DNA of 64,000 nucleotides from Rhodoferax sp. (GTDB lineage: Bacteria > Pseudomonadota > Gammaproteobacteria > Burkholderiales > Burkholderiaceae_C): contig NZ_JAQTXM010000006.1 of the NCBI RefSeq assembly GCF_028688795.1, positions 1 through 64,000 on the forward strand. Reading direction: 5' to 3'. Shown here one piece after another: positions 57,460-64,000 of this stretch; the stretch's first letter is position 1, and each line of letters starts with the position of its first letter. The notes under the pieces are model-generated. The model did no database searches. It worked only from the letters and a program-made list of their open reading frames with translations, and had not been told where the DNA came from. A program made the position numbers and the translations under genes.

Positions 57460-57486
57460 AATTTTTGGGAATTTTTCCCAAAAATT
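57460..57486. promoter_or_regulatory. Palindromic candidate operator upstream of dsbD
   Basis: AATTTTTGGGAA-TTT-TTCCCAAAAATT; core TTTGGG-N7-CCCAAA at 57464..57482. Confidence 0.75.
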
Positions 57487-57527
57487 ATGATCCAATCAAG
57501 ATTTCAGTCTCGATTGGAGTTTTAGCC

Positions 57528-59438
57528 ATGGCACAGTGTTACCGGATTTTTCGCAGTCTCTTGATTTGGGCCAGCATGCTGGCAGGTGTGGGCGCAAGCA
57601 GCGCGTGGGCCGAGGAGTTCTTGCCACCCGAACAAGCGTTTGCATTTACCGCCAGCGCCATCAACGACAGCACCGTCAGGCTGCACTGGACCATTGCGCC
57701 GGGTTACCACCTGTACCGTGACCGCATCAGCGTGCAAGCTGATGCCCCCAACGTGACATGGCAAGCCCTGATGATCCCGGCTGGCACGGAAGAATTCGAC
57801 ACCAATTTCAGCAAAATGGTGGCTGTGTTCAGAAACACACTCGATGTTGATGTGAAGATGACACAAGGCAATGCAGCCATTCCCCTAACCGTGGGCTGGC
57901 AGGGTTGTGCCGATTCCGGTCTGTGTTACCAGCCTGACAGCCAACAGCTGCAAGTTGCGCTGACCGGCATGGGTGCCGGAAAAAACGGCATTCAACTGGC
58001 CAGTGTCGGGGCGACAGAGGACACCGCTGCCCCGATCACCCCAAGCGGCGTTACGGCAACAGCATCAGTCGCACTAAATGCATCAAAAATACCTGTAGCC
58101 CTTTCAATAAAAACGCAACAAGCTCCTGATTCAATAGCACAAACCCTAGCTTCAGGCAGTCTGATGCAAACCTTGGGGGCATTTTTGCTGGCGGGTTTGT
58201 TGTTAGCTTTTACCCCTTGTGTGTTGCCCATGGTGCCAATTTTGTCATCACTGATCGCCGGGCAAACTGGCCCGGTCAGCCGTGGCAAAGGTTTTGGCTT
58301 GTCACTCGCTTACGCATTTGGCATGGCCTTGGTGTATGCCGGTTTTGGTGTGGCAGCCGGGTTGGCGGGCGAAGGCTTGGCTGCAGCGCTGCAAAACCCC
58401 TGGGTGCTGGGCGCCTTTGCCTTGCTGCTGTCAACCTTGGCGATGTCGATGTTTGGGTTCTATGAGTTGCAGATGCCCAGCTTTATCCAGAGCCGCGCCA
58501 CCGAATGGTCCAACAGCTTCAAGGGCGGCTCGTTTGTTGGCGTGTTCATCATGGGTGGCGTGTCGGCGCTGGTCGTTGGCCCTTGCGTGGCGGCACCCTT
58601 GGCGGGGGCATTGGTGTACATCAGTCAGACACGCGATGTGGTGCTGGGTGGTCTGGCCTTGTTTTCGATGGCGCTGGGCATGAGTGTGCCCCTGCTGCTG
58701 GTGGGTTTGTCCGCAGGTAGCCTACTGCCACGCGCCGGCGCCTGGATGGAGCGCGTCAAGCAGGTGTTTGGCATGATGCTGTTGGGGGTGGCGATCTGGA
58801 TGGTGTCACCGGTGATACCGACTGCAGCGCACATGTTGTTATGGGCTATCTGGCTGCTGACGGCCGCCGCGCTGCTGGGTGTTTTTGGCGCTGCCACACC
58901 TCAGCACGCACGTACCCCCGTGGCGGCGCGTGCCAGCGGGGCCGGTTTTACTGCCGTGGCACTGGTGTTGCTGATTGGCGCTGCCTCCGGGGGCCAATCG
59001 GTTTTGCAGCCTTTGAGCCATTTGGGTCTGGCGCAGGCGGGGAATCTACCGGGTGCCATCGCCCATGCCGGCCTGAAGTTCGAACGAGTCGCCAACGTGC
59101 AGGCGCTGAACGCTGCACTGACACAAGCCAAGCAGCACGGGCAAACCGTAATGCTGGATTTTTATGCTGACTGGTGTGTGTCGTGCAAAGAGTATGAGAC
59201 GTTTACCTTCAGCGACAGCAGCGTACAAAAACGCTTGAACGGCGTCAAATTGCTGCAGGTGGACGTCACCGCCAACAGCGTTGATGACAAAGCCTTGCTC
59301 AAGCGCTTTGGCCTGTTCGGCCCACCGGGCATCGTCTTTTTTGATGGCGAGGACAATGCACAGGTGATTCACAAGGTCATTGGGTACCAGGCCCCTAAGG
59401 ATTTTTTGGCCTCCTTGGGCACCGCCCAAATACTTTAA
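57528..59438 (+). CDS. dsbD: Thiol:disulfide interchange protein DsbD
   Basis: N-terminal DsbD-alpha, FTPCVLPMVPILSSLIAGQ, GPCVAAPLAGALVYI, C-terminal FYADWCVSCKEYE. Confidence 0.94.
   Translation: MAQCYRIFRSLLIWASMLAGVGASSAWAEEFLPPEQAFAFTASAINDSTVRLHWTIAPGYHLYRDRISVQADAPNVTWQALMIPAGTEEFDTNFSKMVAVFRNTLDVDVKMTQGNAAIPLTVGWQGCADSGLCYQPDSQQLQVALTGMGAGKNGIQLASVGATEDTAAPITPSGVTATASVALNASKIPVALSIKTQQAPDSIAQTLASGSLMQTLGAFLLAGLLLAFTPCVLPMVPILSSLIAGQTGPVSRGKGFGLSLAYAFGMALVYAGFGVAAGLAGEGLAAALQNPWVLGAFALLLSTLAMSMFGFYELQMPSFIQSRATEWSNSFKGGSFVGVFIMGGVSALVVGPCVAAPLAGALVYISQTRDVVLGGLALFSMALGMSVPLLLVGLSAGSLLPRAGAWMERVKQVFGMMLLGVAIWMVSPVIPTAAHMLLWAIWLLTAAALLGVFGAATPQHARTPVAARASGAGFTAVALVLLIGAASGGQSVLQPLSHLGLAQAGNLPGAIAHAGLKFERVANVQALNAALTQAKQHGQTVMLDFYADWCVSCKEYETFTFSDSSVQKRLNGVKLLQVDVTANSVDDKALLKRFGLFGPPGIVFFDGEDNAQVIHKVIGYQAPKDFLASLGTAQIL
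58074..58138 (-). repeat. Dispersed AT-rich repeat copy J, inside dsbD linker
   Basis: Minus strand CAGGAGCTTGTTGCGTTTTTATTGAAAGGGCTACAGGTATTTTTGATGCATTTAG. Confidence 0.65.
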
Positions 59439-59525: not shown

Positions 59526-60683
59526 TCAGTCGTCAAACTCCAGCTTAGTCACCAGCAGTACATCACCCACCGTGCTGCCCTTGACTTTGATCTGGACGCC
59601 AACTTTCAAGTCGCTGGCGTTGCCGTGGCTGATCTCGGCAGTCGAGGCATCACAGCGTTGGCCGCGCACGATAAAGCTGGCAATGCTGGAAAAACTGGTG
59701 ATGGTTCCACTTATTTCTGTGACGTGTGCAGACTGCTCATCTTCAAGCTCAACGCGGCGGGCTTTGAGCAAGCCAGCCACCCAGGTGCCATAAATTTCCA
59801 CCCGCGCGCCCAAGCCAATTTGCGCACCAACCGGGCTGTAGCTGGCGTTGCTGATGTCCACCTCAATGTTCCCCAGGGTGAGCTGGCTGCCAGCCACCAA
59901 CGCTGTCACAAAACCCTCAATTTCAACCTCGCCTTCACTCGGGTTGACCGCAGCTGCAGCAAGAGACCGCACCTGTGTCACGTTCAAACCAAGCCCATCC
60001 ACAGACGGCACGCCTTCGACACGCACCAGACTGCCGGCGGCCAGTTCGGCCAGTTTGCTGCCCGTCAAGACCCAGGCATTCAAAGACACTTGCTGATTTG
60101 CCACCAGCACCTGGCCACTGCTCACCACCTGCGTCACGGCCGGCAAGGTGGCCACGCGCGTGGCCTGCCAGACATTGCCGTCAGCGCTCACCTGCAGCCC
60201 CCACACGGCCACCGCCTGGCCCACGCGCAATTGGCTCACCGCGGCCACCCCGTCAAACACGGTGTTGGCTTTGGTTTGAATGGTCATGCCAGAGACGACA
60301 AAATCACTGCCGACGATTTGGCTGATGACCCCTTGCCCGATGGACCAGACTTCGATTCGGGTAGCCGTTGCCATCGTCAGGTCAATCCCGCGTTCGCCCT
60401 CGATATCGGCCACCATGCCAAGACGCAAGTCGGCGGACGTGGCTGCAACGCCATTGAGCTGCACTTGCGCTTGAACATCGTTGAAGGTGATGCCGTTGAC
60501 AATGACACTGCCAAACCCGGCGATTGAGCCTTGGGCATACAGCGGCGACCCCGTGCCACCGGTTCCAGGCGAACCAGCATACTGACCGCTCCCGCTCCCG
60601 CCACAGGCGCTCAGGGCGGTCCCGGCCATGATGATCCAGGCACGCCGGTTCAGGCTATTTTCAATAAGGTCAACGTCACTCAT
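59526..60683 (-). CDS. DUF5666-type repeat lipoprotein
   Basis: RRAWIIMAGTALSACGG (twin-Arg plus lipobox); YAQGSIAGFGSVIVNGITFND and repeated VRVEG/GTWV OB-like units. Confidence 0.8.
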   Translation of the reverse strand: MSDVDLIENSLNRRAWIIMAGTALSACGGSGSGQYAGSPGTGGTGSPLYAQGSIAGFGSVIVNGITFNDVQAQVQLNGVAATSADLRLGMVADIEGERGIDLTMATATRIEVWSIGQGVISQIVGSDFVVSGMTIQTKANTVFDGVAAVSQLRVGQAVAVWGLQVSADGNVWQATRVATLPAVTQVVSSGQVLVANQQVSLNAWVLTGSKLAELAAGSLVRVEGVPSVDGLGLNVTQVRSLAAAAVNPSEGEVEIEGFVTALVAGSQLTLGNIEVDISNASYSPVGAQIGLGARVEIYGTWVAGLLKARRVELEDEQSAHVTEISGTITSFSSIASFIVRGQRCDASTAEISHGNASDLKVGVQIKVKGSTVGDVLLVTKLEFDD

Positions 60684-61609
60684 GGCTTGGCTTGTCGTTT
60701 GGTTTGTTTTATGGTCTGAGGCTTGGCCAGGCTGGCTGCCGGTCGGGTTGACATGGCGTCATGAAAATACACGCCAAATCTGACCCGGTGTTTGGGGCCG
60801 CTGTCCGCCAGGCTGCGCTGCTTGGCAACCGTCGCTGTTTGTAAAAATTGCTGCAACGCAACCGACCAGAGTTGTCGCGCCCTGATCTGCAATTGCTGCG
60901 CTTGCGCCTCTGAGAGGTCAAGCGAAAAGGCGCTTTGCTCAAGCATCAGAGGCCCAGGGCGATCTGGCGCCAGGTTGTGCACAGCAGTAGCCAGATGGTC
61001 GCTGACGTTGGCTGCCAAAAAGTGGAACGACTCACTTAAACCCTCTTTGGGCACAAAGGCGTTGCTCTTGAGCGCGACGTAGCCGTCGTCTTGCAGGCTC
61101 ACCACGCCAAGCCGCTCCAGTTCATCAAGCACCGCACGGGCCCCAACGTCGCGGCTCACCTCGGCGACGAGTGTGGTGAAGTCTGGCTCGCCCATCTGCC
61201 CGCGCTTGGGCGTACGCGCCAGTGGGCGGGCGCTTTGGTCGGCATTGAGGTAGTGCGGCTCACTGATCCATCGAGCCACCACAGAGGCCGCAACCGGCAC
61301 CATGGGCGTGACCAGATCGGTTGATTCTGGCGCTTCGCGCAGGCGCTTCACATCTTTGCGGTGCACGCCTGTGAGTAAGGCAATACGGGTATCCGAGCTG
61401 CCTTTGTCGGCTAGGCCATAAGCACCTACGGCTTCATCGACCAAGGCTTTTTTAAGTAATTCGACCATCGATGGCAATTGCAGACCATGCCCAATCATCA
61501 GACGAGCCAAGGGCTGCAACACCTGTGCAATGGCCTGCCCAGCCAAGGCAGGCTCAGGCAAACCTGCAGTACGCAGGGCAGGCTGAGGGGTTTCTTGAGG
61601 GGTGGACAT
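60680..61609 (-). CDS. DUF6502 family protein
   Basis: LARLMIGHGLQLPSMVELLKKALVDEA...RIALLTGVHRKDVKRLRE; ATGA overlap with the DUF5666 gene. Confidence 0.75.
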   Translation of the reverse strand: MSTPQETPQPALRTAGLPEPALAGQAIAQVLQPLARLMIGHGLQLPSMVELLKKALVDEAVGAYGLADKGSSDTRIALLTGVHRKDVKRLREAPESTDLVTPMVPVAASVVARWISEPHYLNADQSARPLARTPKRGQMGEPDFTTLVAEVSRDVGARAVLDELERLGVVSLQDDGYVALKSNAFVPKEGLSESFHFLAANVSDHLATAVHNLAPDRPGPLMLEQSAFSLDLSEAQAQQLQIRARQLWSVALQQFLQTATVAKQRSLADSGPKHRVRFGVYFHDAMSTRPAASLAKPQTIKQTKRQAKP

Positions 61610-61800: not shown

Positions 61801-62295
61801 ATGAAAAAAGTCATCACCAAAATCGCCGCCTTGCTGCTGACCACCCTGCTGGGCGTGACTGCACAAGCACTGGACCTTGGTCAGCCCGCGCCGCTCTTCA
61901 GCTTGCCCGGCGTACAGGCGGCAGTGGACCTGAGCAGCTTCAAAGGCCAAACCGTGTACCTTGACTTCTGGGCGTCATGGTGCGGCCCCTGTAAGCAGTC
62001 GTTTCCCTGGATGAACGAGATGCAAACCAAATACAGCAGCAAGGGCTTGCGTGTGGTCGCAGTCAACGTGGACCAACGCCATGCTGACGCCACCTTGTTC
62101 CTGAAAGACAACCCGACCAATTTCACCGTGGCGTTTGACGCAATTGGCCAAACACCGAAGAACTACGCCATTCGCGGCATGCCCACCTCGGTGCTCATTG
62201 GCCCGGACGGCAAAGTGATCAGCATTCACAACGGCTTCAAGGCCGAACATCGGGCGGAGCTGGAGACACAAATCAAGCAAGCCCTGCACCTCTGA
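61801..62295 (+). CDS. TlpA-family periplasmic thiol-disulfide reductase
   Basis: Signal peptide; YLDFWASWCGPCKQSFPWMNEMQ. Confidence 0.93.
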   Translation: MKKVITKIAALLLTTLLGVTAQALDLGQPAPLFSLPGVQAAVDLSSFKGQTVYLDFWASWCGPCKQSFPWMNEMQTKYSSKGLRVVAVNVDQRHADATLFLKDNPTNFTVAFDAIGQTPKNYAIRGMPTSVLIGPDGKVISIHNGFKAEHRAELETQIKQALHL

Positions 62296-62315: not shown

Positions 62316-62543
62316 ATGAAAAATGCTTTGATGAAGATCCTGACGGTCACGGCAATGGCGTGGCTAAGCGGCTGCAGCAGTCTGGGACAGGTCACAGCCT
62401 GGGAAAAAGGCAACCTGGCCAAACCCATGATGACCTTTGAAGGCGATGCACTCGAGCAGCGCTTTGTGCAACACATCTATGGCAGCAAAGAGAACTCCAG
62501 CGGCGGCTATGGCGTTGGCGGCGGCGGCTGTGGTTGCAACTAA
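62316..62543 (+). CDS. DUF4266-like small lipoprotein with Gly-rich CGC C-terminus
   Basis: Lipobox WLSGC; VTAWEKGNLAKPMMTFEGDALEQRFVQHIYGSKENSSGGYGVGGGGCGCN. Confidence 0.82.
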   Translation: MKNALMKILTVTAMAWLSGCSSLGQVTAWEKGNLAKPMMTFEGDALEQRFVQHIYGSKENSSGGYGVGGGGCGCN

Positions 62544-62558
62544 AGCATAACTTTCAGC

Positions 62559-63734
62559 ATGAAAAAATCAAACCCCATGTCTCAGCAGCACGCCACCGGG
62601 ATCTTGTTGGCCTCTTTGGTGCTACCTGGCCTGGTGGCCTTGGCCGGCTTTGCCCCTCTGTCGGCAGTTGCCGAAAACGCCCCGGAAAAAACCACCATCG
62701 CCATCAAGTACGGCATCTATGACGATGGCCAGGCCGGCTGGGATCGCGTCAGCGTGAAGGCGCCGCACGTATACGTGCAGGCGCCCATCGGCAGTGAATG
62801 GGCCCTTGAAGGCTCTTGGGTAGGCGACAGCGTGTCAGGCGCTTCACCGCGGTGGCATTCCCAAAAAAGCGGTGCCAGCCGGATGAGTGATTACCGCAGT
62901 GCCAGCGACCTTAAAGTCACCCGCTATTTTCCCCGTGCGGCGGTGTCGGCAAGCGTGGCCTATTCTGACGAACACGACTACACCTCGACCGCCATTGGGC
63001 TGGATGCACGCTGGTCCAGCGAAGACAACAACCGAACCTGGACAGTGGGTTATGGCACGTCCAATGACAGCATCGACAACAGCCTCACCCTTGGCACTGC
63101 CATTGACAAACACAAGCGTACACATGAGTACATGGCAGGCGTCACGCAAGTGCTTACCCCCACAGACATTGCCCAACTCAACCTGACCCGCAGCGTTGGC
63201 AGCGGCTATTTCACTGACCCCTACAAACTGTTTGACCAGCGCCCCGAGCAGCGCAACACCTGGATTGCATTGGCACGCTGGAACCACTATGTTGAGCGTT
63301 TTGACGCCGCCATTCACAGCAGCTACCGCTATTACAGCGACACCTTTGGCGTGAACTCACACACTTTTGGGGTTGAATGGGTGCAACCCATTGGCAAATG
63401 GACGTTCACGCCAGGCGTGCGCTACTACAGCCAGAGCGCAGCCAATTTCTACTTTGACGCGGTGCTGGACGCACAAGGTCAATACGACCTGGGTGCCACG
63501 CTGGCGCCTACAGGCAACATGACTTACAAGTCCGCCGACCAGCGTCTTTCTGCCTTTGGTGCGGTCACACTGTCGATCAAGGCCAGCTATGCCGTCACAC
63601 CCAACACCGTGGTGGATGTCAAGTTTGAGAACTACCGCCAGACCTCGGGGTTGCACCTGGGCGGCAGCGGTAGTCCAGGGTTAGACACGTTCAATGCCAA
63701 CTTCACCCAAGTTGGCCTGACGCACCGCTTCTAG
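62559..63734 (+). CDS. DUF3570-like predicted outer-membrane beta-barrel protein
   Basis: Signal peptide, alternating beta-strand pattern, C-terminal aromatic FTQVGLTHRF; contains GDSVSGASPRWHS. Confidence 0.8.
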   Translation: MKKSNPMSQQHATGILLASLVLPGLVALAGFAPLSAVAENAPEKTTIAIKYGIYDDGQAGWDRVSVKAPHVYVQAPIGSEWALEGSWVGDSVSGASPRWHSQKSGASRMSDYRSASDLKVTRYFPRAAVSASVAYSDEHDYTSTAIGLDARWSSEDNNRTWTVGYGTSNDSIDNSLTLGTAIDKHKRTHEYMAGVTQVLTPTDIAQLNLTRSVGSGYFTDPYKLFDQRPEQRNTWIALARWNHYVERFDAAIHSSYRYYSDTFGVNSHTFGVEWVQPIGKWTFTPGVRYYSQSAANFYFDAVLDAQGQYDLGATLAPTGNMTYKSADQRLSAFGAVTLSIKASYAVTPNTVVDVKFENYRQTSGLHLGGSGSPGLDTFNANFTQVGLTHRF

Positions 63735-63744
63735 AAAGCCGTCC

Positions 63745-64000
63745 ATGAGCCGCTGGCGCGCGTTGCGTTTTGACTTTTCAGCCATGGCCTCGCCTTGTAG
63801 CTTGCTGCTTGATGGCCAGGATGAACGCGTCATGCGTCGGGCTGCCAAGGCGGCGATCGCCGAGGTGCAGCGCATTGAACACAAATTTTCACGTTTCCGC
63901 GCCGCCAGCGTCATCAGCAGTATCAACCGTGCGGCCGGGATGGCGGCCGTGCCAGTAGATGCCGAAACCATGGGCCTGCTTGACTTTGCCCAAGCGCTTT
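63745..64000 (+). CDS. apbE: FAD:protein FMN transferase (ApbE), N-terminal part, truncated by window end
   Basis: MSRWRALRFDFSAMASPCSLLLDGQDERVMRRAAKAAIAEVQRIEHKFSRFRAASVISSINRAAG...VPVDAETMGLLDFAQAL; open to the last base. Confidence 0.88.
   Translation, partial: MSRWRALRFDFSAMASPCSLLLDGQDERVMRRAAKAAIAEVQRIEHKFSRFRAASVISSINRAAGMAAVPVDAETMGLLDFAQAL

Follow-up and report, generated by a model that had tools for sequence, protein, structure and literature searches.

The window, that is, the whole stretch of 64,000 nucleotides of Rhodoferax sp. DNA that was analyzed, encodes near its end a DUF3570 protein for which the attachment of one or two covalent flavins by the neighboring ApbE is well supported by the sequence evidence. 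The first-pass annotation had proposed a covalently flavinylated outer-membrane barrel at this place, a reading that held up, although the class itself had been published in 2021: DUF3570 is a known ApbE substrate, and the locus belongs to that known system (Meheust et al., 2021, eLife, PMC8238504). Four points go beyond the text of PMC8238504, namely the topology of the barrel, an ApbE without a signal peptide, cytochrome lipoproteins, and a sister clade carrying SNAS or SSAS. The outward topology and the flavinylation before export are worth following. Should the flavins prove to face outward and to be attached ahead of export, the cofactor would be fixed to a precursor in the cytosol and would reach the surface by way of Sec and BAM, which would give a Gram-negative cell a simple way to move thiol electrons out. 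The whole explanation, a DUF3570/DsbD-type flavinylation system with cytosolic modification, FMN on the outer face, and an electron route fed by thiols, is in our judgment reasonably probable.

In the 2021 study, orphan apbE genes were found to adjoin genes for DUF3570 proteins with two conserved [S/T]GA[S/T] motifs, and for the Chlorobium luteolum DUF3570 protein, in-gel fluorescence and Ser-to-Ala mutants showed flavinylation at both of them by the cognate ApbE, which was lost when both serines were changed (PMC8238504). The cluster of DsbD, thioredoxin, DUF4266, DUF3570, and ApbE was described in the same paper: DUF3570 was present in 227 DsbD clusters, and 316 clusters contained ApbE, DUF3570, thioredoxin, and DUF4266 with DsbD not nearby. 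The authors pointed out that DUF4266 ends in CxC and called the role of the DUF3570 system uncertain (PMC8238504). A barrel is mentioned for DUF3570 neither in the main text of that paper nor in that of the 2024 follow-up, PMC8238504 leaves barrel topology and the lack of an ApbE signal peptide out of its main text, and DUF3570 and DUF4266 were named in no further paper of the literature searched, which comprised the running text of the papers. The 2021 publication, the DsbD, thioredoxin, and DUF4266 genes upstream, and the absence of a signal peptide from ApbE had been missed in the first-pass annotation.

Gene organization of the locus

The thioredoxin, DUF4266, DUF3570, and apbE genes form a tight run on the + strand, and together with the DsbD gene they occupy the last 6.5 kb of the window (Table 1). 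The complete DsbD cluster set lies within 57465–64674, with the DsbD gene being two divergent genes (DUF5666 and DUF6502) away from the thioredoxin-to-apbE run. As had been noted before, apbE begins 10 nt past the DUF3570 stop codon, with its ATG at 63745 and the stop ending at 63734; around 675 of its bases extend beyond the window end, the whole gene being at L006:7746–8675.

Table 1. Features of the DUF3570 locus. Positions are those of the window unless marked L006
Feature	Position	Strand	Evidence
dsbD, transmembrane thiol reductase DsbD	57465..59438	+	Pfam DsbD_TM (313 bits), DsbD_N, Thioredoxin_7
DUF5666 putative lipoprotein	59526..60683	-	Pfam
DUF6502 protein, divergent from the thioredoxin gene	60680..61609	-	Pfam
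TlpA/ResA-like periplasmic thioredoxin, WCGPC, signal peptide	61801..62295	+	Pfam Redoxin/AhpC-TSA; ResA-like NCBIfam match below cut-off
DUF4266 small lipoprotein, lipobox LSGC, Gly-rich tail ending in C-G-C-N	62316..62543	+	Pfam PF14086 (74.6 bits)
DUF3570 predicted outer-membrane beta-barrel, 391 aa	62559..63734	+	Pfam PF12094
Flavinylation motif 1, D90-S-V-S-G-A-S96, loop beta3-beta4	62826..62846	+	
Flavinylation motif 2, S104-G-A-S107, same loop as motif 1	62868..62879	+	
apbE, FAD:protein FMN transferase, 309 aa	63745..64000, on to L006:8675	+	Pfam ApbE

Directly 3′ of apbE lie the genes of two putative lipoproteins (L006:8551–11648), each with a single CxxCH cytochrome c domain at its C-terminus. 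Each of them was found in 17 of the 88 long loci with apbE and DUF3570, mostly in the nearest relatives of the window and alongside DUF5666, which itself occurred in 20 of the 88, chiefly in the same relatives, while DUF6502 occurred in 24. DUF5666 and DUF6502 are thus parts of an extended cluster in near relatives.

Compared with the system of Meheust et al. (2021), the locus has the same DsbD, thioredoxin-like protein, DUF4266 with CxC, DUF3570 with two motifs, and ApbE. It differs in that DsbD is set apart by the divergent DUF5666 and DUF6502 genes, that the thioredoxin is of the TlpA/Redoxin type whereas the paper counts PF13899, and that two monoheme cytochrome lipoproteins follow downstream (PMC8238504).

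The DUF3570 protein and its flavinylation motifs

The protein that had been called DUF3570-like is a true member of the family by Pfam, with a match of 204.3 bits against a gathering score of 25 (PF12094). It has a signal peptide from residue 1 to around residue 38, with the cleavage site between AVA and EN, and a C-terminal Phe, and the mature protein is free of Cys. Both motifs seen in the first-pass annotation were recovered: D-S-V-S-G-A-S, residues 90–96, lies exactly at 62826–62846, and the second SGAS occupies residues 104–107. The two [S/T]GA[S/T] cores thus span residues 93–96 and 104–107, the second without the Asp that opens the full motif. Composition-preserving shuffles of the protein contained the strict D..[ST]GA[ST] in 0.7% of cases and two [ST]GA[ST] in 0.6%, and the window has 231 stop-to-stop ORFs with a length of 100 aa or more, of which the DUF3570 ORF alone encoded the strict motif. 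The strict motif is therefore not expected by chance, given its shuffle frequency and its single carrier. From the motif sequence, S96 (62844–62846) is the predicted FMN acceptor, and S107 is probably a second one; Ser as acceptor gives 10%–55% less flavinylation than Thr.

NqrC, RnfG, and NosR share the D-x-x-[ST]-G-A-[ST] recognition motif and phosphoester-linked FMN. However, they have the FMN_bind fold and reside in the inner membrane or periplasm, whereas a Pfam search found no FMN_bind domain (PF04205) in the DUF3570 protein, DUF3570 being the sole match.

Predicted barrel and position of the motif loop

The AlphaFold2 model of the DUF3570 protein, built with 55 aligned homologues, had 16 strands and a mean pLDDT of 93.2. 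Foldseek returned 433 PDB matches with E ≤ 0.001, and the 50 matches listed were all outer-membrane barrels or their assembly or secretion partners. OmpG, FadL, and OccK were among the matches, at a TM score of around 0.5, which indicates a barrel of no particular family; a search of the PDB for a sequence relative of DUF3570 found none. With its even strand number, signal peptide, and C-terminal aromatic residue, the protein is predicted to be an outer-membrane beta-barrel.

In the model, motif 1 opens in the final residues of strand 3 and continues into the low-confidence loop beta3-beta4 (precursor residues 93–110; pLDDT ~54), in which both acceptor serines lie. Burial of the serine in the membrane, raised in the first-pass annotation as a point against flavinylation, was not seen, with S96 being placed just past strand 3 in this loop, outside the strands. 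Loops of more than 10 residues, five in all, were confined to the odd side, which is that of the motif loop, and the even turns were all short. The motif loop ranged from 15 to 62 residues among homologues, and the even turns averaged 4; over all 15 loops of the barrel, the difference in mean length between odd and even loops was not significant by a rank test. Even-stranded barrels have both termini in the periplasm, which puts the loop beta3-beta4 on the outside. Consequently, by strand parity in the predicted model, both flavinylation motifs lie in one flexible loop opposite the termini and are hence probably extracellular, although a loop of such low pLDDT could fold into the lumen.

A relative from the Chlorobiaceae, the lineage in which DUF3570 flavinylation was proven (PMC8238504), was likewise modeled with 16 strands. 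The Chlorobiaceae genome at L190:1919–10202 has four DUF3570 genes close together in tandem, and in three of these copies an insertion between strands 1 and 2 carries added SGAS, SGAT, or TGAS sites. In the longest copy, which was the one modeled, the inserted loop beta1-beta2 holds the extra SGAS/SGAT and likewise lies on the odd side. The three copies with added sites may possibly be multi-flavinylated barrels.

ApbE without an export signal

The ApbE of the window matched Pfam ApbE (PF02424) with 244.5 bits over the whole gene and has the catalytic residues, His in C-H-V-L-N-P and Ser in A-T-S-G-D. The analysis of its N-terminus revealed neither a signal peptide nor a lipobox, and with at most 16 codons from the upstream stop to the domain start, there is no room for a signal peptide. 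None of the 112 ApbE ORFs of DUF3570 clusters, a set in which some ORFs come from one genome drawn twice, had an N-terminus of signal-peptide hydrophobicity, and 30 had fewer than 18 residues available upstream. By comparison, 9 of 27 other ApbEs reached this hydrophobicity, among them the two further copies in this genome, which have clear signal peptides. At least three of these 27 (L206, L208, and L210) belong to sister-clade operons and likewise lack a signal peptide.

In the column of the conserved Vibrio Asp285, assigned by alignment to the motif, Gly was present in all 106 aligned cluster ApbEs, including those of Chlorobiaceae, and close relatives of the tested Chlorobium ApbE also have Gly there. 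For this reason, the Gly-bearing cluster ApbEs make up a distinct subtype, which is nevertheless likely to be active.

ApbEs are usually periplasmic, and the known cytosolic ones have cytosolic partners. Since the cluster ApbEs lack an export signal and their partner is exported, modification in the cytosol before export is the simplest reading, and it would explain how a flavin on an outside loop can come from an enzyme that is never outside the cell. The N-termini thus suggest that the DUF3570 precursor is flavinylated before it leaves the cytosol. SecYEG reportedly tolerates bulky attached groups. In the published co-expression in E. coli, the proteins were made without their signal peptides, and DUF3570 was recovered from the insoluble pellet by denaturing purification (PMC8238504), so that a folded barrel is probably not needed for flavinylation. 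In Klebsiella pneumoniae, a cytosolic ApbE without a signal peptide also has a dedicated partner, a soluble fumarate reductase; that partner stays in the cytosol, whereas the one here is a secreted outer-membrane protein (PMC12052999).

In the proposed mechanism, ApbE would transfer FMN from FAD to S96, and probably to S107, of the signal-peptide-bearing DUF3570 precursor while it is still unfolded in the cytosol. The flavinylated chain would then pass through Sec and be inserted by BAM as a 16-strand barrel, with its FMN-bearing loop ending on the outer face. We infer the cytosolic timing, the extracellular side, the electron route, and the acceptor.

As a less likely reading, the flavin would act in the periplasm or the barrel lumen as a thiol/flavin relay, for example in metal reduction for uptake, with ApbE being exported by an unrecognized route. 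It agrees with the usual periplasmic location of ApbEs, with DsbD, thioredoxin, and DUF4266 all being periplasmic, and with the VIT1 iron transporters in 25 DUF3570 clusters, from which the authors suggested iron assimilation (PMC8238504). However, in two models strand parity puts the motif loop and the termini on opposite sides, the hydrophobicity result for the cluster ApbEs argues against export, and no iron gene was recognized in the stretch annotated around this DUF3570 copy.

Proposed electron route and the DUF4266 tail

For the surface flavin with cytosolic attachment, DsbD would pass electrons to the TlpA-like thioredoxin in the periplasm, which would hand them on to the CGC tail of the DUF4266 lipoprotein. 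The FMN on DUF3570 would come next, followed by either an external acceptor or the downstream monoheme cytochrome c lipoproteins. DsbD is the probable source according to the gene content, and DsbD and thioredoxin can supply thiol electrons. The position of the cytochrome c lipoproteins downstream suggests that they may be an acceptor chain at the cell surface. The function is likely to be thiol-to-flavin electron transfer across the outer membrane, but we know of no redox group that carries electrons across the barrel to a flavin on the outer face.

MtrAB-type conduits also use an outer-membrane barrel in electron transfer to the outside and offer an analogy in working only; the DUF3570 barrel has no multiheme cytochrome inside, and its flavin would be covalently bound to the barrel itself. 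That the cytosolic ApbE, FMN attached before Sec, and the extracellular loop, together with DsbD, thioredoxin, the CGC tail, and the monoheme lipoproteins, make up a conduit without multiheme cytochromes is a tentative proposal, which we would not yet call likely.

The CxC end of DUF4266 was present in 138 of 138 homologues, after a Gly-rich tail. The C-terminal sequence GGGGCGCN (window 62472–62543) is almost unchanging across phyla. Such a tail is more conserved than a plain thiol pair needs, and metal binding or modification is possible. It would also fit a role in which the CGCN tail and thioredoxin handle a metal such as copper, with the flavin barrel being a metal reductase or uptake port rather than an electron conduit. 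This role is improbable, with no metal transporter or chaperone recognized in the cluster, and with DsbD and thioredoxin pointing to thiol electron supply.

Conservation of the motif and the sister clade

Conservation was assessed with an unbiased sample of 56 DUF3570 homologues, obtained from genome searches by profile and not by motif. Every one of the 38 loci with apbE near the gene had [ST]GA[ST] at the place of motif 1, so that the lack of conservation beside apbE, which had been raised earlier as a possible objection, was not observed. Seventeen loci had no apbE in the fetched flanks, and in 14 of them [ST]GA[ST] was missing, 12 being one clade with S-N-A-S and two having S-S-A-S; the motif was kept in L095, L118, and L120. 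This difference was wholly due to 16 sister-clade rows and L095, corresponding to around two changes on the tree. Therefore, the association of motif and apbE is phylogenetically non-independent and was not used as a statistical test.

In a set of 140 homologues that was partly motif-selected, this one loop contained each of the 125 strict motifs and 207 of the 214 loose ones, and a second [ST]GA[ST] was common there. The nine-member alignment set (80 loci) was excluded from conservation, as one of its two search patterns was the motif itself. Nine of these 80 loci had the motif without a nearby apbE (L149, L160, L163, L165, L182, L184, L185, L186, and L196), and apbE was found elsewhere in all seven genomes checked, which covered six of the nine.

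In the sister DUF3570 clade, SGAS is replaced by SNAS or SSAS, with D-x-x-S-[NS]-A-S being kept at the same place. The idea that this clade is without apbE was rejected by a whole-genome check, in which most genomes had apbE around 7 kb off on the same strand. The clade thus differs from the apbE-adjacent DUF3570 proteins in adjacency and motif only. In the Klebsiella fumarate reductase, changing the Gly of the motif to Ala leaves about half of the flavinylation, so that the sister clade could also be modified.

That D-x-x-S-G-A-S is a structural turn matching the ApbE motif fortuitously, on a flavin-free barrel whose ApbE neighbor has another substrate, would agree with the partial conservation in the sister clade without the canonical Gly and with the two or so changes on the tree, but is very improbable in view of the C. 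luteolum homologue, which lost its flavin only with both serines changed (PMC8238504), of the motif in all 38 loci with a nearby apbE, and of the location of the genome's one FMN_bind protein elsewhere, near another ApbE, with DUF2271 not found in this genome.

In the one sister-clade operon of this kind that was annotated (L231), apbE lies beside a gene with an HZS_alpha-like domain. In both L231 and L233, the operon of the SNAS/SSAS DUF3570 is longer and includes an HZS_alpha-like lipoprotein, with apbE several kb away; the lipoprotein of L231 is accompanied by cytochrome c, and the operon of L233 also encodes small OMP and SH3 proteins. Double-length DUF3570 proteins of 890 and 912 aa with the motif D-T-W-S-G-A-T were observed at L089 and L108.
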